From Oscillospiraceae bacterium (GTDB lineage Bacteria; Bacillota; Clostridia; Oscillospirales; Oscillospiraceae): a stretch of 49,255 nucleotides of DNA. Shown here one piece after another: positions 2,219-49,255 of the stretch. The notes beneath the pieces were generated by a model. That model was not told where the DNA came from. It ran no database searches and worked only from the letters and a program-made list of their open reading frames with translations. The DNA is taken from the NCBI GenBank assembly GCA_902787755.1, contig CADAHL010000032.1, forward strand, positions 1 through 49,255. The letters run 5' to 3'. How positions within the stretch are numbered: position 1 is the first letter of the stretch; each line of letters begins with the position of its first letter. Made by a program: the position numbers and the translations under genes.

Positions 2219-4908
2219 TCAGCCTCCGTATTTCCCGATGTGCTTCCTGACGACGCCGACGCCGATCTTCGGGACGTTCTTCACGATCCGGCCCAGGGTG
2301 TGGAAATACTCCTGGTTGTCCGCGTCGTAGACCTTCTCCAGATGGATGGCGTCAAACTTGCACTTGGTGGTGCAGATGCCGCACCCGACGCACATGAACT
2401 GGTCCACCACCGCAGTGCCGCATCCGAGGCAACGGGCGCACTCGGTTTTGATCTGCTCTTCCGTAAAGGTTGCGCGCAGATCGTTGAAGCTGGACTTTGC
2501 CGCCGCGCCCTCCGCCTTGGCGGGCTTCTGCCGAGGCGCGCTGTCAAAGCCGCCCAGACCGATCTGTACCCCAGACCGATCTGTACCGTGGCCTTGTCGA
2601 AGGCGCGGTAGTCCCGATGGTCGCGGCCAAGGGTCAAGGTCTGGCCCGCGTGGACAAAGCGGTGGATGGAGACCGCCGCCTCCTTGCCCGCCGCAATGGC
2701 GTCGATAACGAACTGGGGTCCGGTGACCACATCCCCGCCGGCAAACACATCCGGCACCGCCGTCTGACAGGTGACGGGGTCGGCCTCCACAGTTCCCCGC
2801 TTGCCGGTCGCAAGGCCGATGCCGCCCAGGTCCACTCGCTGACCCGTGGCGGAAAGCACCGCCGTGACAGGGACAGCCTCAAATTCTCCGCTGCCCGTCA
2901 CGCTGCGGCGACCCTTCCCATCAGGCTCGCTCAGCTCCATTTTCTCCAGCTTCAGGGCAGTGGCAGCGCCTTCGCCCAGGATCTCAGCAGGCGCCTCCAG
3001 GAAGCGGAAGGCAACGCCCTCTTCTCTGGCCTCAGCCAATTCATCCCGGTCGGCGGGCATCTCCGTCTCACTCCGGCGGTAGTAGACTGTAACCTCCGCT
3101 CCCAGGCGGAGGGCGGCTCTCGCCACGTCCATGGCTACGTTGCCGCCGCCAATAACAGCGACCTTATCCCCGATCTCCGGGCGCTGCCCCTGATTGATTC
3201 TGCGCAGGAAGTCGACGCCGCTCATGACGCCGTCCAACTCCTCGCCGGGAATCGAGAGCTTTGCGCCTTTCGACGCGCCGACAGCCAGATAGAAGGCTTT
3301 GAAGCCGAGGCCGCGGAGAGAATCCAGCGTCACGTCCTTCCCGACCTCGATGCCGGTTTTGAATTCCACGCCCAGTTCGCGCAGTACGTCGATCTCTGCG
3401 TTGATGACGTCCTTTTCCAGGCGGAAGGAGGGGATGCCCAGCGTGAGCATGCCGCCCAGCACCTGTTCTTTTTCAAAGACCGTAACAGGATAGCCTTTGG
3501 CCGCCAGATAATAGGCGCAGCTCAGACCCGCGGGGCCCGCGCCGATGACGGCAATTTTCTCGGGATAGGGTTTGCCCAGTTGGTTGATCATGGGCGGAAC
3601 ATAACGGGTGGCGCTGTTGAGCTCCCGCTCCGCAATAAACTTCTTGATCTCGTCAATTGCCACGGGGGCGTCCATCTCGCCGCGTGTGCAGGCCTCCTCG
3701 CACTTCTTGTTGCAGATCCGGCCGCAGACCGCCGGGAAAGGGATCTCTTTCTTGATAAGCTCCAGCGCCTCACCGTAGCGGCCCTGGGCGGCCAGCCTGA
3801 TGTAGCCCTGCACCGGCACATGGGCAGGACATGCAGCCTTACAGGGGGCCGTGCCCTCCGGCATGACGTCGGTGCGGTTAGAACGGAAGTCTGGGTTGTA
3901 GCGCTTGCTGCTCCAGAGCGTGTTGCGCGCCGTCTCCTCCGGCCGCTCCTCGTTGGCCGGACGGGGACACAGCTTCTGCCCCAACTTCACCGCGTTGAGC
4001 TGGCAGTTTTCCACACACTGGCCGCAGGCCACACACTTGTCCTTGTCCACCCGGGCGACGTAGTTGGTGCGGATGGCATCGGGGGTGCGAAAGTACTCCG
4101 CGATGCGCAGGGCAAAGCAGGAACAGCCGCAGCAGTTGCAGATCGCGGTGGTGTCGTCATAGCCCGGGGTCACGTTCAGCTCGTGCACCAGGCCGTTGTC
4201 CTCGGCGCGCTTGAGGATCTCGTAGGCCTCCTCTTTGCTGATCAGGCGATGCGCGCCGGTCTCGGAATAGTTCTTGGCGTTGTCGTTGAGGTACATGCAC
4301 ATGTCCTCTTCCAGGTGGCCGCAGCCCTCGCCCATGAGCCTGCGGGCTCGCCGGCAGGAGCAGGGACCGACCGAGACGGCCCAGGCGTCCTCAATGAGCT
4401 TGTGCACCTCGTCGTAGCTTGCTTTGCGGGAATTGTTCTCGATGGCACTCTGCACCGGGATGACGCGCATCAGGTTCATACCAACGTCCATAAAAGGCGC
4501 CAGCATGGACACCCGTTCGCGGGTATAGCGCTCAAAGCACTCGCCCAGCACGGGATACTTGTCGCACTGCTCCCGGTTGGAGAGCACGCCCTCCATAATT
4601 CCCGGCACCCAGATGGGGTAGTACCAGCAGAGTCTGCCATCCACCACGCGGCTGCGGATGACGCCAGCGATCTTGAGCTTATCCAGCTGCTGCTGCGTAA
4701 AGGCCAGATCCTTCTTGGCGCGATGGGCGATCTCCTCTGCCGTGCGGTTGGCCTCCAGGCGCATGTGCATCATGATCGTACACATGTCGTCATCCACAAT
4801 GGGCTCCAGCAGCTTATATTCCGGGTCGTCGTAAGTGATGCCGGTGTATGTCAGGCTTTCCAGACTGATCTTGGTCGCAAGCTTTAAAATGTTTGGTCTG
4901 TGCGCCAT
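2219..4908 (-). pseudogene. GltD-like FAD/NAD(P) Fe-S oxidoreductase, frameshifted near its C-terminus
   Basis: The protein starts MAHRPNILKLATKI behind GGGAGG. Residues about 1-290 form a Cys-rich Fe-S module (GPCSCRRARR, CGHLEEDMC, CNCCGCSC). A 4Fe-4S ferredoxin motif follows (CVACGQCVENC). Next come a glutamate-synthase small-subunit-type domain with a Cys-rich helical linker (CKAACPAHVPVQGYI, CGRICNKKCEEAC), an FAD motif (VIGAGPAGLSCAYYLA) and an NAD(P) motif (VIGGGNVAMDVARAA). After KATVQIGLG the frame is lost at a 17-bp tandem duplication (2554-2587) and reads into unrelated Arg/Ser-rich sequence. Removing one repeat unit restores an 890-residue protein ending with a further Cys cluster (CARCLGCG, CVGCGICTTKC) and stopping at 2219, one base before hypA. 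Such proteins usually pass electrons between NAD(P)H and ferredoxin. Whether the lesion is real or an assembly error cannot be told here. Confidence 0.8.
2554..2587. repeat. 17-bp perfect tandem duplication
   Basis: The unit CCAGACCGATCTGTACC occurs at 2554-2570 and again at 2571-2587 with no intervening base. Seventeen is not a multiple of three, so it shifts the frame of the GltD-like gene. Deleting one copy joins KATVQIGLG to GFDSAPRQKPAK and restores the C-terminal ferredoxin motifs. Confidence 0.95.
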
Positions 4909-43513: not shown

Positions 43514-43536
43514 GAGCGCTCCCGCCGGGAGCGCTC
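43514..43536 (-). terminator. Hairpin flanking structured repeat A (upstream copy)
   Basis: GAGCGCTCCC pairs with GGGAGCGCTC around a 3-nt loop. On the minus strand it is followed by TTTTT, so it reads as an intrinsic terminator for leftward transcription. A second copy (20 of 23 bases the same) lies exactly 238 bp to the right, next to the stop of the gene at 43783. Confidence 0.7.
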
Positions 43537-43540
43537 AAGC

Positions 43541-43721
43541 TGTCGACAAAGCCAAAAGGCTTTGCCGACAGAGGGGGATTCCGCCCTGCTGCGCGCACTC
43601 GCTCGCGGGGGACGCTCGCACACTTGCAGGGCGCAAAGTGTGTTTTCCGAGGTACACGCCCCCGGAAAACACGGATTCAATTTCTTTTTCGTGTTGTGAC
43701 GCGAAAAACTCTGCGAGGCTT
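43541..43721 (+). repeat. Structured repeat element, copy A (putative structured RNA)
   Basis: Four hairpins in order. P1: 43541-43553 with 43558-43570, 13 bp with one A-C mismatch. P2: GCCCTGC 43583-43589 with GCAGGGC 43626-43632, enclosing TGCGCGCACT and GCTCGCACACTT. P3: GTGTTTTCCG 43640-43649 with CGGAAAACAC 43663-43672, and the 13-nt loop AGGTACACGCCCC. P4: TTTTTCGTG 43685-43693 with CGCGAAAAA 43700-43708. It closes with AAACTCTGCGAGGCTT (43706-43721). Copy B at 48698-48882 has the same order and loops with different stem sequences. It lies between rfbA and the secreted-protein gene. No family is recognised. Confidence 0.65.
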
Positions 43722-43751
43722 TTTTGCCCTAACGGAGCTTGCCTACCATCT

Positions 43752-43774
43752 CGGCGCCCCCGCCGGGAGCGCTC
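43752..43774. repeat. Hairpin flanking structured repeat A (downstream copy)
   Basis: Matches 43514-43536 in 20 of 23 positions, including the exact 16-mer CCCGCCGGGAGCGCTC (43759-43774 and 43521-43536). It starts 8 bp after the stop of the minus-strand gene at 43783 but lacks the T-run that the other copy has. Confidence 0.8.
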
Positions 43775-43782
43775 GGGCCGGT

Positions 43783-44325
43783 TCAGCAGAGCTTTCCGTT
43801 GTTGTCCACGTAGATCACGGGGGCCATCCCGGTGATGAGCAGGATCATGTCCTCATAATTGGTCTGGGCGCCCTCCCGGCTGATGACCCGCCGGGTCTGG
43901 AGCCGGCCGCTGAGATTTCCCACCGCGGCGGCGTTGGGCATCTGATTCAGGATGGACTGGCGCAGCCGTTCAAACAGCTCCCGGCCATCCTCCACCGTCC
44001 CCAGACGGGTGCCGTTGATGAGCACCTCGTCGGCCGGGCACAGGCCCGGCACGGACAGAAGCAGGGCCTTCGTCAGCGCGGCCTCGTCTCCCCGGGCCGG
44101 CTGAAAGCGAAGGGCCAGCTTCCGCTCCGCCCGCGGAAGCTCCGCCGGGCCGGAGAGCAGCTCCTCCGCTGCCTCCAGAGCCTTCTGCTCACAGCGGCGG
44201 AGCTGAGCGGGGGAGTAGAGCTCCTCCAGCTCCGCTCCGTCCACCTGCAGGGCATAGCAGGGACGCAGGTTGGCCGACAGCAGCATCACCAGGGCCAGGG
44301 CCAACAGCAGCAGTTTTTTCTTCAA
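43783..44325 (-). CDS. Secreted hypothetical protein, 180 aa
   Basis: A signal peptide (KKKLLLLALALVMLLSANLRP, probable cleavage near CYA-LQ) precedes a domain of about 150 residues with Glu/Leu-rich helices (ELEELYSPAQLRRCEQKALE) and a region LINGTRLGTVEDGRELFERLR, which recalls stalk domains of clostridial cell-wall proteins. Two late Cys are present. The start is a TTG at 44325 behind GGAGGTGG; no ATG is available. The family is not identified. It should be exported. Confidence 0.65.
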   Translation of the reverse strand: MKKKLLLLALALVMLLSANLRPCYALQVDGAELEELYSPAQLRRCEQKALEAAEELLSGPAELPRAERKLALRFQPARGDEAALTKALLLSVPGLCPADEVLINGTRLGTVEDGRELFERLRQSILNQMPNAAAVGNLSGRLQTRRVISREGAQTNYEDMILLITGMAPVIYVDNNGKLC

Positions 44326-44433
44326 GGGATACCACCTCCGGCGGTTAACATAACACCAGGCCGAAGGGGCGTCAAGGCCTTCGACAAAAGTAGTGCGGAC
44401 TCCCGCAAAAGACCCGGGTTTCTCTGCGGCGGC

Positions 44434-45042
44434 TCAGTCCTCCAGCCGGAGCTGTCCCACGGAGACCTCATAGGCGGTCTTTTCCACCGGGCCCTCCTGG
44501 GTGAGCTTCACATAGGACCGACTCTGGAGTCTGCCCTCCAGCCGGACCCGGTCCCCGACCTGCCACTGTTCGGCCTGACGGGCCTGCCGCCCCCAGCAGA
44601 TGCAGGGCAGATAGTCCGAGCGGGCATAAGCCCGGTTTACCGCCAGCATCAGATCGCAGATCTCCCGGCCAAGGGGTGTGCGGCGAAACTTGGGAGGTTT
44701 ACATAACGTGCCGCACAGCAGGACCCGGTTTCGGTCCTCCTCCTCGCTGAAGCACAACTGCCGGACATAGACGCTCAGCACCAACCGGGCGCCCCGGCCG
44801 CTGCGGTTGTTGAAGCTCCGAAGCTGCCCCAGCACCTGCAGGCGGGAGGCGGTTTTCAGCTCCAGCTGGCCCAGAAGATCCCGCCGGACCAGCAGGGGGA
44901 TCCGGTCCGGGGTGCCGGACAGGCGGCGGATCTCCAGAGGGAAGGTGTCAAAATCCAGGCCGCGGCTGCTGTGGGAATAGAGAGGCCGGCCCGCGAGGGT
45001 GCCGATCAGCTCCACAACATTGTTCTCCGAACAGATTTCCAT
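44434..45042 (-). CDS. Single-stranded DNA-binding protein-like, tandem OB folds
   Basis: A 202-residue protein with two SSB-like OB folds. The first is NNVVELIGTLAGRPLYSHSS to VLGQLRSFNNRSGRGARLVL. The second is NRVLLCGTLCKPPKFRRTPLGREICDL reduced to its key part LGREICDLMLAVNRAY, then YLPCICWGRQARQAE and DRVRLEGRLQSRSY, which is a typical SSB core. It lacks the acidic C-terminal tail of housekeeping SSB and ends QLRLED. Such two-domain proteins occur as accessory SSBs in Clostridia. It diverges from deoC, and the promoters overlap. Confidence 0.78.
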   Translation of the reverse strand: MEICSENNVVELIGTLAGRPLYSHSSRGLDFDTFPLEIRRLSGTPDRIPLLVRRDLLGQLELKTASRLQVLGQLRSFNNRSGRGARLVLSVYVRQLCFSEEEDRNRVLLCGTLCKPPKFRRTPLGREICDLMLAVNRAYARSDYLPCICWGRQARQAEQWQVGDRVRLEGRLQSRSYVKLTQEGPVEKTAYEVSVGQLRLED

Positions 45043-45095
45043 GATGCTCGTTTCCCTTTCGCAGAAAGATATTCCAATCTATTCCGCAACCGTGC

Positions 45096-45124
45096 TTGAA
45101 TATGCCGGGAAAAGAAGGTATAAT
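45096..45124 (+). promoter_or_regulatory. deoC promoter
   Basis: A -35 TTGAAT and a perfect -10 TATAAT are 17 bp apart. The predicted start is near 45131, with the ATG at 45157 behind AAAGGAG. Confidence 0.85.
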
Positions 45125-45144
45125 GATGGCACAATCTATGTCAA
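45117..45144 (-). promoter_or_regulatory. Possible promoter of the SSB-like gene, overlapping the deoC promoter
   Basis: On the minus strand a perfect -35 TTGACA (45144-45139) and a -10 TATACC (45122-45117) are 16 bp apart. The -10 shares bases with the deoC -10 on the other strand, so the two polymerases would compete. Confidence 0.5.
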
Positions 45145-45156
45145 AGGAGAACCAAT

Positions 45157-45840
45157 ATGGAAATTAAAGATATTCTGGAAAAATGCGACCACACGCTGCT
45201 GCGGGTGGACTGCACTTCCGAAGAGATCCGCAAGCTCTGCGATCAGGCCATCAAATACAACTGCGCCAGCGTCTGCATCCCGCCCTGCCACATCCCCGGC
45301 GCCAAGCGCTACGTGGGCGATAAGCTGACCCTCTGCACGGTCATCGGCTTCCCCAACGGCTACATGACCTCCGCCGCCAAGGCCTTCGAGGCCGCCGACG
45401 CGGTGAAGAACGGCGCGGATGAGATCGACATGGTCATCAACCTCTCCATGGTCAAGGACGGCGCCTGGGATCAGGTGGCCGCGGATATCGCCGCGGTGCG
45501 CAAGGCCACCGAGGGCAAGCTCCTGAAGGTCATCATCGAGTGCTGCCTGCTGACCGAGGAGGAGAAGCTCCGTCTGTGCCGCATTGTGTCCGACAGCGGC
45601 GCGGAGTACATCAAGACCTCCACCGGCTTCTCCAAGGGCGGCGCCACCCGGGAGGACGTAAAGCTCATGCGGGAAAACTGCGATAGCCATGTAAAGGTCA
45701 AGGCCGCCGGCGGCATCTCCTCCCTGCAGGACGCGGAGGACTTCATCAACCTGGGCGCCGAGCGTCTGGGCACCAGCCGGATCGTGAAGCTGGCCATGGA
45801 GCTGGAGAACGCCGAAGGCGCTCCCAACGAGAATTACTGA
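45157..45840 (+). CDS. deoC: Deoxyribose-phosphate aldolase
   Basis: A 227-residue class I aldolase. CTVIGFPNG and EIDMVINLS form the barrel motifs. YIKTSTGF carries the Schiff-base Lys153, and VKAAGG the relay Lys182. It splits 2-deoxyribose 5-phosphate to glyceraldehyde 3-phosphate and acetaldehyde in deoxynucleoside catabolism. It is monocistronic with its own promoter and terminator; the usual deo partners are not in the window. Confidence 0.95.
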   Translation: MEIKDILEKCDHTLLRVDCTSEEIRKLCDQAIKYNCASVCIPPCHIPGAKRYVGDKLTLCTVIGFPNGYMTSAAKAFEAADAVKNGADEIDMVINLSMVKDGAWDQVAADIAAVRKATEGKLLKVIIECCLLTEEEKLRLCRIVSDSGAEYIKTSTGFSKGGATREDVKLMRENCDSHVKVKAAGGISSLQDAEDFINLGAERLGTSRIVKLAMELENAEGAPNENY

Positions 45841-45851
45841 GAACCAGGACA

Positions 45852-45894
45852 GGCCCCGGAAGGGAAGCGTATTCCCCGCCGGGGCCTTTCTTTC
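45852..45894 (+). terminator. Intrinsic terminator of deoC
   Basis: An outer stem GGCCCCGG / CCGGGGCC encloses a second pairing GGGAA / TTCCC, followed by TTTCTTTCC. Confidence 0.85.
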
Positions 45895-45919
45895 CAACAC
45901 AGACAAGCGGAGGAGTGCT

Positions 45920-47209
45920 ATGCAACGCCACGACAGAGAGTACCGGCAGTATGTCTCCGTCCTGGAGGAGGAGCTGCTGCCCGCCATGGGCTGCACCGAG
46001 CCCATCGCCATCGCCTATGCCGCCGCCCTGGCCCGGAAGACGCTGGGCGCGCTGCCGGAAAAGCTCCTGGTGGAGGTCAGCGGGAACATCATCAAGAACG
46101 TGAAGAGCGTGGTGGTGCCCCACACCGGCGGGCTCCGGGGCATACCCGCGGCGGCTGCCGCCGGGGCTGTGGCCGGGGATCCGGACCGGGAGCTGGAGGT
46201 CCTGTCCCGGGTGACGGAGGAACAGATCCGGGCTGTGGGCCGATATTTGAACGAGCATGAGGTAAAGGTCCTGCACGCCGACACGCGGCATATCTTCGAT
46301 ATCGCGGTCAGCGCCTGGGCCGGAGAGGATCAGGCCAGGGTCCGGATCGTGGGGCATCACACCAACGTGGTGTTGATCGCCCGAAACGGCCGGAGCCTTC
46401 TGGAGCGGGAGATCCGGGAGCAGGAGAGCGGGGACGGGCAGCGGGACTTCATGAGCGTGGAGGGAATCGTGGCCTTCTGCCAGTGCCTGGATCCGGAGGA
46501 CGTGCGAAAGGTGCTGGAGCGGCAGATCGAATATAATATGGCCATCGCCGAGGAGGGCCTCCGGGGCGATTACGGCGCCCGGATCGGCAAGACCCTGCTC
46601 CGGGGGCATGAGGACTGCCTGGACTACAAGCTCCGGGCCTGGGCCGCCGCGGCGAGCGACGCCCGGATGAACGGCTGCGAGCTGCCGGTGGTCATCAATT
46701 CCGGCAGCGGCAACCAGGGCATCACCACCAGCGTGCCGGTGATCGTCTATGCCCGGGAGAAGGGCCTGGGGCAGGAGGAGCTGCTGCGGGCCCTGGCCGC
46801 GGCCAATCTGGTGACCATCCATATGAAGACCGGCATCGGCCGGCTCTCCGCCTATTGCGGGGCGGTCAGCGCCGGCTGCGGCGCCGCGGCGGGCATCGCC
46901 TGGCTCCAGGGCGGCCGCTTCCACCACATCGCCCATGTGATCGTCAACGCCGCAGCCATCACCTCCGGCATCGTCTGCGACGGGGCCAAGGCCAGCTGCG
47001 CGGCCAAGATCGCCTCGGCGGTGGATGCGGGCCTGCTGGCCCTGGATATGTACCGGGACGGCAACCAGTTTTACGGCGGCGAGGGGATCGTGAAGAAGGG
47101 CGTGGAGAATACCATCGCCAACGTGGGAAGGCTGGCCCGCTTCGGCATGGAGCAGACCGACCGGGAGATCCTGCGCCTGATGCTGGACAGCGACGCGCCC
47201 GGAAAATAA
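45920..47209 (+). CDS. cyuA: L-cysteine desulfidase / serine dehydratase-like protein (UPF0597, CyuA)
   Basis: A 429-residue protein of the YhaM/CyuA family, normal length about 430-440. Conserved Cys for the 4Fe-4S cluster lie in LLPAMGCTEPIAIAYA, RLSAYCGAVSAGCGAAAG and ITSGIVCDGAKASCA. NSGSGNQGITTSVPV and TIHMKTGIG are family motifs. The enzyme splits L-cysteine into pyruvate, ammonia and sulfide. GGAGGAG precedes the ATG. A weak hairpin follows. The D-cysteine desulfhydrase type gene at 16994 would supply the complementary D-isomer reaction. Confidence 0.92.
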   Translation: MQRHDREYRQYVSVLEEELLPAMGCTEPIAIAYAAALARKTLGALPEKLLVEVSGNIIKNVKSVVVPHTGGLRGIPAAAAAGAVAGDPDRELEVLSRVTEEQIRAVGRYLNEHEVKVLHADTRHIFDIAVSAWAGEDQARVRIVGHHTNVVLIARNGRSLLEREIREQESGDGQRDFMSVEGIVAFCQCLDPEDVRKVLERQIEYNMAIAEEGLRGDYGARIGKTLLRGHEDCLDYKLRAWAAAASDARMNGCELPVVINSGSGNQGITTSVPVIVYAREKGLGQEELLRALAAANLVTIHMKTGIGRLSAYCGAVSAGCGAAAGIAWLQGGRFHHIAHVIVNAAAITSGIVCDGAKASCAAKIASAVDAGLLALDMYRDGNQFYGGEGIVKKGVENTIANVGRLARFGMEQTDREILRLMLDSDAPGK

Positions 47210-47265
47210 TGCCTGGAAAACCGGAATATTTTTCCGGAAAGAGCATATTTTCAGAGAGAAAACCC

Positions 47266-47294
47266 TTGACAGCGGGCGCAAAAGCTGATATATT
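47266..47294 (+). promoter_or_regulatory. Promoter of infC-rpmI-rplT
   Basis: A perfect -35 TTGACA and a -10 TATATT are 17 bp apart. A leader of about 150 nt follows. Confidence 0.9.
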
Positions 47295-47301
47295 ATCCAA
47301 G

Positions 47302-47438
47302 CTAAAACAAAGAAGGTACGGCATCCCCGGCCTCACCCGGCGGCCTTGAGCCAGCCGAGGTCAATAAAGGCAGCGTCCCCGGAAGGGGATAACGGTGTTT
47401 TTATGCGTGGATGCTGTGCGTCCGCGCTTTTAATTTTT
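47302..47438 (+). promoter_or_regulatory. infC operon leader with attenuator hairpin (L20-leader type)
   Basis: The untranslated leader of infC ends in a terminator-like hairpin: GCGTGGATGC (47405-47414) pairs with GCGTCCGCGC (47418-47427) through two G-U pairs, and TTTTAATTTTT follows. GC-rich upstream segments such as CCCCGG and CCGGAAGGGG could form an alternative fold. This is the arrangement known in Firmicutes, where free L20 causes early termination ahead of infC. That it responds to L20 here is inferred from position. Confidence 0.65.
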
Positions 47439-47452
47439 CGGAGGTGTTTCCT

Positions 47453-48025
47453 ATCGCAAACGCGGTTCATCAGATCAATGAGGAGATCAGAGACAAGGAA
47501 GTTCGTCTGATCGGGGACCAGGGCGAGCAGCTGGGCATCATGTCCGCTGACGAGGCTCTGAAGATCGCCGAGGAGAAGGAACTGGATCTGGTCAAGATCG
47601 CTCCGGGCTCCAACCCTCCCGTCTGCCGGATCATGGATTACGGCAAGTACCGCTTCGAGCAGACCAAGAAGGAGAAGGAAGCCAAGAAGAATCAGCGAAT
47701 CGTCGAGGTCAAGGAGATCCGCATGTCTCCCGGTATCGACACCAATGATTTCAACACCAAGCTGAAAAATGCCCAGAAGTTCCTGGCAGACGGGGACAGA
47801 GTGAAGGTGTCCGTGCGTTTCCGGGGCCGTGAGATGGCCCATACGGACATCGGCGTCACCCTGCTCAAGGACTTTGCCGAGCAGTGCGCGGAGATCGCCA
47901 ATATGGACAAAGCCCCCAAGCTGGAGGGCCGGAACATGTCCATGTTCCTCTCTCCCAAACCCACCACGCCGGCCAAGAAGCCCGGCAAGCCCAAAGCGCC
48001 CAAGGCAGAGCCTGCCGAGGGTTAA
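47453..48025 (+). CDS. infC: Translation initiation factor IF-3 (starts at ATC)
   Basis: A 190-residue IF-3. The N-domain has HQINEEIRDKEVRLIGDQG and SADEALKIAEEKELDLV, then NPPVCRIMDYGKYRFEQ and the C-domain VKEIRMSPGIDTNDF, KFLADGDRVKVSVRFRGREM. A Lys/Pro-rich tail of about 20 residues ends the protein. No ATG lies at the right place. GGAGGTG (47440-47446) is 6 bp before ATC (47453-47455), so the gene starts at ATC, as expected of the IF-3 self-control through rare start codons. The ATG at 47411 lies within the attenuator hairpin. Confidence 0.93.
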   Translation: MANAVHQINEEIRDKEVRLIGDQGEQLGIMSADEALKIAEEKELDLVKIAPGSNPPVCRIMDYGKYRFEQTKKEKEAKKNQRIVEVKEIRMSPGIDTNDFNTKLKNAQKFLADGDRVKVSVRFRGREMAHTDIGVTLLKDFAEQCAEIANMDKAPKLEGRNMSMFLSPKPTTPAKKPGKPKAPKAEPAEG

Positions 48026-48061
48026 AGAACGAGAGAACCCAACACGGAAGGAGAAAGTATC

Positions 48062-48259
48062 ATGCCCAAACTGAAGACCCACAGCGGTGCTAAGAAGAGA
48101 TTCAATCTCACCAAGACCGGTAAAGTCAAGCGCGCCCACGCGTATAAGAGCCATATCCTCACCAAGAAGGACACCAAGCGTTGCCGCCGTCTGCGCTCCG
48201 AGACCTATGCCGATGTGACCAACGCAGCTACGATCAAGAAAATGATCCCTTACAAATAA
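48062..48259 (+). CDS. rpmI: 50S ribosomal protein L35
   Basis: A 65-residue basic protein, [14 protein letters not shown] to [18 protein letters not shown], full length for L35. AAGGAG precedes the ATG. It is part of the large ribosomal subunit. The gene lies 36 bp after infC and 29 bp before rplT. Confidence 0.97.
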
Positions 48260-48288
48260 GGGCCGACGCGAAATAGGAGGATATATAA

Positions 48289-48645
48289 ATGGCAAGAGTT
48301 AAAGGCGCAATGATGACCCGCAAGCACAGAAACAAGGTGCTTGGCCTGGCAAAGGGTTATTGGGGCAACAAGTCCCGTCACTATAAGATGGCCAACGAGC
48401 AGCTCATGAAGTCCGGGCGCTATGCCTACGTGGGCCGCAAGCAGAAGAAGAGAGATTTCCGTCAGCTGTGGATCACCCGTATTTCTGCCGGCTGCAAGGC
48501 CAACGGCATGAACTACTCCACCTTTATGCACGGCTTGAAGCTGGCCGGCGTGGACATGAACCGCAAGATGCTCTCCGAGACTGCGATCCATGACGCCGCT
48601 GCGTTCACCGCTCTGTGCGACCTGGCCAAGAAGGCCATCGGCTGA
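48289..48645 (+). CDS. rplT: 50S ribosomal protein L20
   Basis: A 118-residue protein: [50 protein letters not shown] and [19 protein letters not shown]. The length and motifs are standard. It binds 23S rRNA early in 50S assembly and in Firmicutes represses its own operon through the leader. AGGAGG precedes the ATG. Its terminator begins 15 bp after the stop and is duplicated 238 bp downstream. Confidence 0.98.
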
Positions 48646-48659
48646 TCAGAAGCAAGCAA

Positions 48660-48692
48660 AAACTCCGTCGAGTTTCTCGGCGGAGTTTTTTT
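48660..48692 (+). terminator. Intrinsic terminator of rplT (first of two direct copies)
   Basis: AAACTCCGTCGAG folds onto CTCGGCGGAG across TTT and is followed by seven T. All 33 bases recur at 48898-48930, on the far side of structured repeat B. Confidence 0.95.
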
Positions 48693-48697
48693 AGGCC

Positions 48698-48882
48698 GTC
48701 AAAAAAGTCCTGCGGACTCTTTTGACGGAGGGGATTACAGCCCGGTGCGCGCACTTGCTGTCCGCCCAAAGCGGCCAGCTCGCACACTTCCGGGCTGAGA
48801 AGTATTATCTCCGACGTACACGCCGCCGGAGAAAATGAATTTTGACTATTTTGCGCCTGCGGGCGCAAACTCTGCGAGGCTT
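48698..48882 (+). repeat. Structured repeat element, copy B (putative structured RNA)
   Basis: Same layout as copy A. P1: 48698-48710 with 48714-48726, 13 bp with one A-C mismatch. P2: AGCCCGG 48739-48745 with CCGGGCT 48790-48796, enclosing TGCGCGCACT, an inner hairpin (48757-48765 with 48771-48779) and GCTCGCACACTT. P3: ATTATCTCCG 48804-48813 with CGGAGAAAAT 48827-48836, and the 13-nt loop ACGTACACGCCGC (11 of 13 as in A). P4: TTTGCGCC 48850-48857 with GGCGCAAA 48862-48869. It closes with AAACTCTGCGAGGCTT (48867-48882), identical in A. Stems differ in sequence but keep pairing. Confidence 0.7.
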
Positions 48883-48897
48883 CTTTGATTAGCCGCG

Positions 48898-48930
48898 AAA
48901 CTCCGTCGAGTTTCTCGGCGGAGTTTTTTT
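48898..48930 (+). terminator. Second direct copy of the rplT terminator
   Basis: Identical to 48660-48692 over 33 bp, including the seven T. The offset is 238 bp. It bounds structured repeat B on the right. Confidence 0.95.
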
Positions 48931-49048
48931 GAGCGGTCTTACAACCGACGGTTGGGAAATCTCCAACCAGGTTCATCTGGAAAAACGCAGGGGGATCGGT
49001 TATCCTGTAGACGAACCGGTTCACAGAATAGAAAAGGAGGATCAGAAC

Positions 49049-49174
49049 ATGGTCGGAGATAAAATCAAAAGCCTTCGGAAGGCGAAAAAACTGACGCAGG
49101 AGCAGCTGGCGGAATATCTGAACATCTCCTCCCAGACGGTCAGCAAGTGGGAGACGGGGGATTCATTTAGTTAA
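49049..49174 (+). pseudogene. XRE-family HTH regulator, truncated
   Basis: AAGGAGG precedes the ATG. The product reads MVGDKIKSLRKAKKLTQEQL then AEYLNISSQTVSKWETGDSF, a textbook XRE helix-turn-helix. It then stops at TAA after 41 codons, where relatives continue with a Pro-Asp stretch and a further 50-300 residues. The sequence past about 49163 is abruptly A/T-rich and carries a new binding site and start. The gene seems to have been cut by an insertion. Confidence 0.75.
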
Positions 49175-49237
49175 GGATACAAATAACCGAAACTCACGCT
49201 TACAATACTTCCAAATATTATTTTGGAGGTATATCCC

Positions 49238-49255
49238 ATGAAAACGCAGAAATCC
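49238..49255 (+). CDS. Start of a CDS cut by the window edge, possibly of a mobile element
   Basis: TTTGGAGG lies 7 bp before an ATG that opens MKTQKS. Only six codons are visible. The A/T-rich context and the interrupted XRE gene just upstream suggest an insertion-element gene, but the product cannot be identified. Confidence 0.4.

Follow-up and report, generated by a model that had tools for sequence, protein, structure and literature searches.

In a contig of 49,255 nucleotides from an Oscillospiraceae bacterium (GenBank assembly GCA_902787755.1, contig CADAHL010000032.1; the whole of it is called the window below), a short structured element occurs in two copies. Both are very probably miniature inverted-repeat transposable elements (MITEs) mobilised by an insertion sequence (IS) of the IS1182 family and duplicating the transcription terminators at which they are inserted. 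This reading rests on sequence comparison: the ends of the element match those of IS1182-family insertion sequences, some of which are likewise found between duplicated terminator hairpins. Each copy contains four hairpins (P1 to P4) in the same order, with constant loops and a common 16-mer, as an earlier note on this DNA had described and as a letter-by-letter check of all coordinates bears out (Table 1). Both copies extend further on both sides than the ranges given in that note, and each is flanked by two copies of a locus-specific terminator hairpin, a feature absent from it.

The hairpin at the first locus is preceded by an A-run and is thus probably the terminator of a minus-strand frame at 43783-44325, and that at the second locus is the terminator of a frame which we take to be rplT, the gene for ribosomal protein L20. 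A match to rplT was found in 38 of 41 genomes, and 30 loci, including that of the window, were taken for comparison: within 260 nt behind the gene, neither AAACTCTGCGAGG nor the P3 motif is present in any of the 29 congener loci examined. The duplication is not confined to the window. A duplicated hairpin is recognised at 48 of 177 distinct copies with enough flanking sequence (copies near a contig end or without an exact 14-mer being left out), and at none of the 177 in a control with mispaired flanks; the corresponding counts in an earlier site set are 36 and 1 of 141. The sequence of the hairpin differs from locus to locus among the 48 duplications, the two copies are letter-identical in 19 of them, and the aligned length is 21-46 nt, plus one case of 86. 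Relative to the terminator, the element lies in sense orientation in 14 copies, in antisense orientation in 11 and ambiguously in 23, with no bias. A copy with hairpin duplication, as judged by eye, is also seen on a faecal phage scaffold (MT836333, locus L348, about 4230-4480).

The ends of the element are imperfect inverted repeats, of the CAAGCTGTCGACAAAGCC type at the 5′ side and of the GGGTTTGTCTACAGTCTG type at the 3′ side. At loci L001 and L005 of the same genome, the 3′ end is the reverse complement of CAGACTGTAGACAAACCC, and this repeat agrees at 17 of 18 letters with an IS1182 right end in that genome (L195, CAGACCGTAGACAAACCC) and at 15 of 18 with a left end (L205, CAGACTGTAGACAAAGTA), which is accompanied by the N-terminus of a transposase. 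Because L205 and L195 carry an identical 21-nt hairpin and both run into contig ends, they are probably halves of one IS; another IS1182-type left end in this genome (L209) lies at a different hairpin. The family was assigned by NF033551 and Pfam for L168 and L205 (385.9 bits for L168 and, for the partial frame of L205, 166.5 bits against a cut-off of 270), by the model for L338, and by 69% identity over 70 amino acids for L162. When 40 IS1182 loci were scanned for a hairpin next to an end, five elements had hairpins at both ends, and the same hairpin stands at the two ends of L338 (30 nt identical), L162 (28 nt identical) and L168 (32 nt, with the loop reversed). The genome of L338 (G016), in which the transposase gene of this IS is frameshifted, holds 13 copies of the element. 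Furthermore, a second MITE of about 160-190 bp on two other contigs of the genome of the window (L193 and L194, contigs C5 and C29) has, by eye, similar ends and a terminator-hairpin duplication and lacks the folded core. The core is also absent from three IS1182 bodies, whose alignment scores equal those of shuffled sequences, so it seems to be dispensable for this kind of movement. A match to a known insertion-sequence family, which the earlier note had named as a finding against a new structured element, was accordingly obtained for the ends and not for the core.

The element has many relatives. Allowing two mismatches, the 16-mer occurs 12 times in its own genome and the reversed pattern not once. 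Exact 16-mers are present in 14 of 60 genomes (own included) and in 13 of 37 within the genus, and across the 60 genomes the number ranges up to 41 copies per genome, with none in many close relatives. A covariance model covering P3, P4 and the 16-mer was built from 50 sequences of an alignment (A3) that includes copy 1 (L006). In the window it matches just the two known places (E about 2e-21 each), and at E of 0.001 or below it matches 42 of 295 genomes of the order Oscillospirales, bearing out the expectation of the earlier note that related genomes would hold further copies. By genus, 26 of the 149 sampled in the order are positive, and in 16 of these E lies below 1e-8; the E-values are rough, and the weakest positive genera lie near the threshold. 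Among the listed genomes of the same family, 19 of 26 are positive. Copy numbers from this model level off at about 15 per genome, because no more than 15 candidates were scored in each. A scan of public contigs gave at least 115 stretches with the element, and the 80 listed come nearly all from uncultured Oscillospiraceae, Ruminococcaceae and Clostridia, plus Sporobacter termitidis. In the isolate Vescimonas fastidiosa MM35, 45 places with at most one mismatch to the 14-mer lie on one replicon of 861 kb.

At 205 and 217 bp, the element is too short to encode a transposase of about 480 amino acids, and it is crossed solely by mechanical open frames. We infer that it would be moved in trans by a DDE transposase of the IS1182 family, which would recognise the terminal inverted repeats and use the palindrome of an intrinsic terminator as its target. 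Strand transfer at both feet of the stem-loop, followed by fill-in, would then leave a whole hairpin on each side, and the folded core (P2, P3, P4 and the 16-mer) would be a separate module carried inside the element. Longer versions bearing a gene were looked for, and none was accepted among the candidates. One of those rejected, L026 in genome G042, holds only P4, the 16-mer and the tail; the other, the downstream candidate L097, spans ordinary genes. At L026, a lipoprotein-like frame is enclosed by two terminator hairpins that resemble each other and lie about 1 kb apart, and a solo end made of P4, the 16-mer and the inverted repeat comes after them.

Several observations weigh against mobilisation by IS1182. 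No hairpin duplication is recognisable at 129 of the 177 copies, many of which also have no 3′ inverted repeat, and the 3′ repeat of copy 1 in the window is decayed. At L008, L357 and L168, the loops of the paired hairpins read as, or closer to, reverse complements of each other, and are therefore not the product of a simple fill-in. The two ends of the IS1182 elements L331 and L179 carry unlike hairpins, and most of the 40 IS1182 loci gave one end or none, partly because the loci are short. In addition, an IS1182 gene was found in 6 of 14 carriers and in 12 of 46 other genomes (p 0.32), was not detected in the heavy carriers G003, G007 and G042, and was not found on the Vescimonas replicon, the chromosome of that isolate not having been searched. 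This weak co-occurrence may be due to the loss of repeats from draft assemblies. The reverse-complement-like loops (L008/L354, L357 and L168) occur both around MITEs and around an IS1182.

Among known systems, the IS1182 family (NF033551; DDE_Tnp_1_6, PF13751, with DUF772, PF05598) resembles the element in its terminal inverted repeats and in its terminator-palindrome target, and members with hairpin duplications exist in the same and related genomes; the element differs in carrying a folded core, which is missing from the three IS bodies, and in having no transposase. For some members of the IS1182 family, ISfinder gives direct repeats that are long and palindromic, so that hairpin duplication may be partly on record. 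REP elements are intergenic hairpins spread in trans by RAYT transposases, whereas the present element has a probable DDE-type partner, a longer body of several hairpins and no co-distribution with Y1 transposases. The staphylococcal elements IS1272 and TnSha1, which belong to the IS1182 family, have stem-loops as their targets, among them several terminators confirmed by RNA-seq; they insert in both orientations and with no primary-sequence target, and the stem-loop is wholly or partly removed and not duplicated (PMC5678879; PMC4923244). Stem-loop targeting is thus alike, and the outcome differs: the whole hairpin is duplicated here and removed there. Hairpin duplication is drawn as a possible pathway only (Fig 13, pathway b, of the 2017 model in PMC5678879) and is not an observed result for IS1272. 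BOX, RUP, SPRITE and bacterial MITEs are likewise short, repeated, intergenic and structured (PMC10969869), and the present element is set apart from them by a covarying core of several hairpins in 26 of 149 genera and by terminator-hairpin duplications. Among the papers listed by searches of an open-licence library, none was seen to describe the element or an IS that duplicates whole terminators. The transposon system apparently picks intrinsic terminators by their shape, and a complete terminator remains on either side of the insertion, which would be a landing strategy of low damage; the outcome once drawn for IS1272 is now seen many times. The structured module it carries is found in gut bacteria at up to about 40 copies per genome, and with so many natural insertions the choice of target, the recognition of the hairpin and the role of the core become testable.

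The hairpins of the core are kept nearly perfect and its loops constant. The folding z-scores against shuffles are -5.9 for 48690-48932 and -5.6 for 43514-43780, spans that include terminator sequence, and together with the 16-mer counts given above they agree with the claim of the earlier note that the structure is more than chance. In copy 2, P3 pairs at 9 of 10 positions, with one A.A mismatch, so that the 10-bp stem claimed for both copies holds for copy 1; similarly, the arms of P2 pair in both copies as claimed, and when copy 1 is folded with its flanks, the base stem of P2, which copy 2 forms, is missing from the structure of lowest energy. A covariation test was made for P3 and a count for P4, and P1 and P2 were checked for arm pairing in the two window copies. 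Removal of near-duplicates reduced 163 copies to 123, of which 14 without the P3 pattern were dropped, leaving 109 for counting and 50 for alignment A3. Pairing in the P3 helix reaches 98.4% over 48 distinct rows, and 8 of the 12 pairs are changed on both sides; the covariation score is 0.388, against 0.116 (sd 0.012) when shuffled and at most 0.112 when slid, so that compensatory stem changes around constant loops, noticed from two copies, are found in the wider set. The inner pair of the P3 loop reads C-G in 68 of the 109 copies and G-C in the other 41, never C-C or G-G, although the pattern allowed C or G on either side. P4 has 959 Watson-Crick, 8 G-U and 8 A-C cells in the same 109 copies. 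When 110 copies are folded to a consensus, P3 is obtained in full and P4 in part, and P1 and P2 are not. In subfamilies A and B, CTCGCA of P2 could pair with TGCGAG of the 16-mer as a pseudoknot; the P2 half of it is, by eye, absent in the Vescimonas copies, and the pseudoknot is not claimed here.

The earlier note allowed for a structure in RNA or in single-stranded DNA (ssDNA). In one pipeline, the ratio of G-U to A-C cells is 3:6 for 30 copies of the element and 8:7 for 110, compared with 141 G-U and 7 A-C for the signal recognition particle (SRP) RNA from 30 genomes of the order, and 29 rplT terminator hairpins give 15 G-U and 11 A-C. With a ratio near 1:1, like that of terminators and unlike that of SRP RNA, the stems resemble short perfect hairpins and not a classical structured RNA, and the counts are compatible with RNA as well as DNA. 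An anchored count over 10 pairs of P3 gives 12 G-U and 4 A-C, with 8 of the G-U at the outermost pair. Two other counts were not used: that of P3 from a free hairpin search (105 A-C, 11 G-U), which ran into the constant loop, and a tRNA control (24 predictions; 463 Watson-Crick, 52 G-U, no A-C), in which the brackets apparently omit mismatches and at least one prediction looked false.

The copies without duplication form a second class. Among 119 copies with detected P1 and P3, 83 have no hairpin duplication, and in 41 of these a same-strand frame ends with its stop codon no more than 12 nt before the foot of P1 (0-5 nt in 31), frames here being mechanical ones of at least 100 codons and not annotated genes. 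The mirror arrangement at the 3′ end is found in 14 of 83 (p 0.0004), in a test that is not fully symmetric, with distances measured to the P1 foot on the 5′ side and to GAGGC, the tail left out, on the 3′ side. When the range is widened to 60 nt, the excess in sense shrinks to 57 against 38 of 83, and a rough count of neighbours, with the upstream frame on the same strand in 49 and on the opposite strand in 42, has little sense bias. TAA is the stop before the element in 23 of 41 cases, whereas among longer frames it ends 555 of 1607 (p 0.007). A possible sense start codon follows within 56 nt in 22 of the 41 copies, and in about eight of them (L052, L054, L076, L110, L125, L141, L152 and L363; judged by eye and with no control) the GAGG of the element lies at Shine-Dalgarno distance from it. 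Several copies without duplication are followed by a T-run. On a viral contig (L244, 1684-1747), P3, P4 and the 16-mer stand alone between two frames, apparently right behind a stop codon. In the genome of the window, a diverged copy (L011, contig C16) lies in sense between two genes, presumably pheS and pheT, without terminator duplication.

The core may best be read as a hairpin module that acts in cis and has a second way of being placed, behind stop codons; the main rival is an RNA regulator. A fuller scheme, in which the core is an independent module of no named family and spreads through Oscillospirales by two routes, is put forward with considerable doubt: packed between IS1182 ends, it would enter terminators that are duplicated whole, and alone, in sense and directly behind stop codons, it would offer its 3′ GAGG as a usable ribosome-binding site for the next gene and so be tolerable inside operons. 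That the core is instead a functional structured RNA, a regulator in 3′ untranslated or intercistronic regions that spreads as a MITE and binds a protein or small molecule with its loops, is somewhat unlikely. Compensatory changes, constant loops, the excess behind same-strand stops and the possible start codons downstream speak for it, while the wobble ratio, the lack of orientation bias at terminators, the weaker sense excess within 60 nt, the near balance of the rough neighbour count and the absence or replacement of P1 and P2 in some copies (L037 and L244, by eye) do not. Nor does Rfam contain a match: none reached the gathering threshold in the window, and permissive searches of both copies gave weak matches only (best E 0.27), in keeping with the earlier statement that no named RNA family fits.

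The copies behind stop codons may have arisen by stem-loop replacement, by decay or through another mobility system. A transposition of the IS1272 type, with one transposase serving both classes of copies, has some plausibility, short of being probable, since IS1272 and TnSha1 remove terminator hairpins, wholly or in part, without duplication (PMC5678879; PMC4923244), and many of the copies in question lie right behind stops, several before a T-run; however, many lack the 3′ inverted repeat, and in 22 of 41 a possible start codon follows shortly, at a place where no terminator would be expected. Alternatively, the core could be the end or origin of a second mobility system of the ssDNA type (e.g., HUH/Y1-like), with the IS1182 ends as a later addition. 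Hairpins whose unpaired bases are conserved are reminiscent of ends recognised as ssDNA, and the core is found without IS1182 tails, behind stops and dispersed in single genomes. This origin is nevertheless rather improbable, as the Y1 transposase (PF01797) occurs in 9 of 14 carriers and 22 of 46 other genomes (p 0.37), is unmatched in the heavy carriers G003, G029 and G042, and no gene-bearing version was accepted; a Y1 partner was rejected for the lack of co-distribution. Group IIC introns insert beside terminators, and such an intron was discarded because of the hairpin duplication, the IS1182-like inverted-repeat ends and the lack of an Rfam match. Finally, palindromes readily yield direct and inverted repeats, so that ordinary intergenic repeats might resemble the element and gain paired terminators by chance or local tandem duplication; the mispaired controls, and the recurrence of the same arrangement in many genomes, at hairpins of unrelated sequence and also around genes of IS1182, make this extremely improbable.

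Table 1. Positions of the two element copies and of the duplicated terminators in the window.
Feature	Position	Strand	Remark
Left copy of duplicated terminator hairpin, locus 1	43514..43536		preceded by A-run
Element copy 1, full extent	43537..43753	+	217 bp
Copy 1 P1 hairpin	43540..43571	+	5′ arm overlaps 5′ terminal inverted repeat (CAAGCTGTCGACAAAGCC)
Copy 1 P2	43583..43632	+	conserved inner parts TGCGCGCACT / GCTCGCACACTT
Copy 1 P3 hairpin	43640..43672	+	10-bp stem; conserved loop around GGTACACGCC; inner covarying pair
Copy 1 P4 hairpin	43685..43708	+	
Copy 1 16-mer AAACTCTGCGAGGCTT	43706..43721	+	includes GAGG, the Shine-Dalgarno core
Copy 1 3′ tail	43722..43753	+	terminal inverted repeat decayed
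Right copy of duplicated terminator hairpin, locus 1	43754..43774		20 of 21 letters as in 43516-43536
rplT (ribosomal protein L20; presumed)	48289..48645	+	its terminator is the target at locus 2
Left copy of rplT terminator with T-tract, locus 2	48660..48692	+	
Element copy 2, full extent	48693..48897	+	205 bp
Copy 2 P1 hairpin	48696..48728	+	
Copy 2 P2	48739..48796	+	
Copy 2 P3	48804..48836	+	one A.A mismatch
Copy 2 P4	48850..48869	+	
Copy 2 16-mer	48867..48882	+	
Copy 2 3′ tail / terminal inverted repeat	48883..48897	+	
Right copy of rplT terminator, locus 2	48898..48930	+	33 nt identical to 48660-48692

Some copies outside the window depart from this layout. Loci L002 and L004 share a near-identical insert of 45 nt within the conserved P3 loop, and L004 and L009 have another insert in common in P2, both being nested small repeats. 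At L046 and L053, paired 16-mers lie 156 and 69 nt apart, respectively, which suggests tandem copies or a solo unit of P4 and the 16-mer. Behind copy 2, at 49040-49255 of the window, a helix-turn-helix-like frame starting at 49050 ends early, at about 49174. From about 49158 up to the end of the contig, the sequence is similar to DNA that adjoins an IS1182 fragment and the end of a MITE elsewhere in the same genome (L346), and the contig therefore probably ends within another mobile element.

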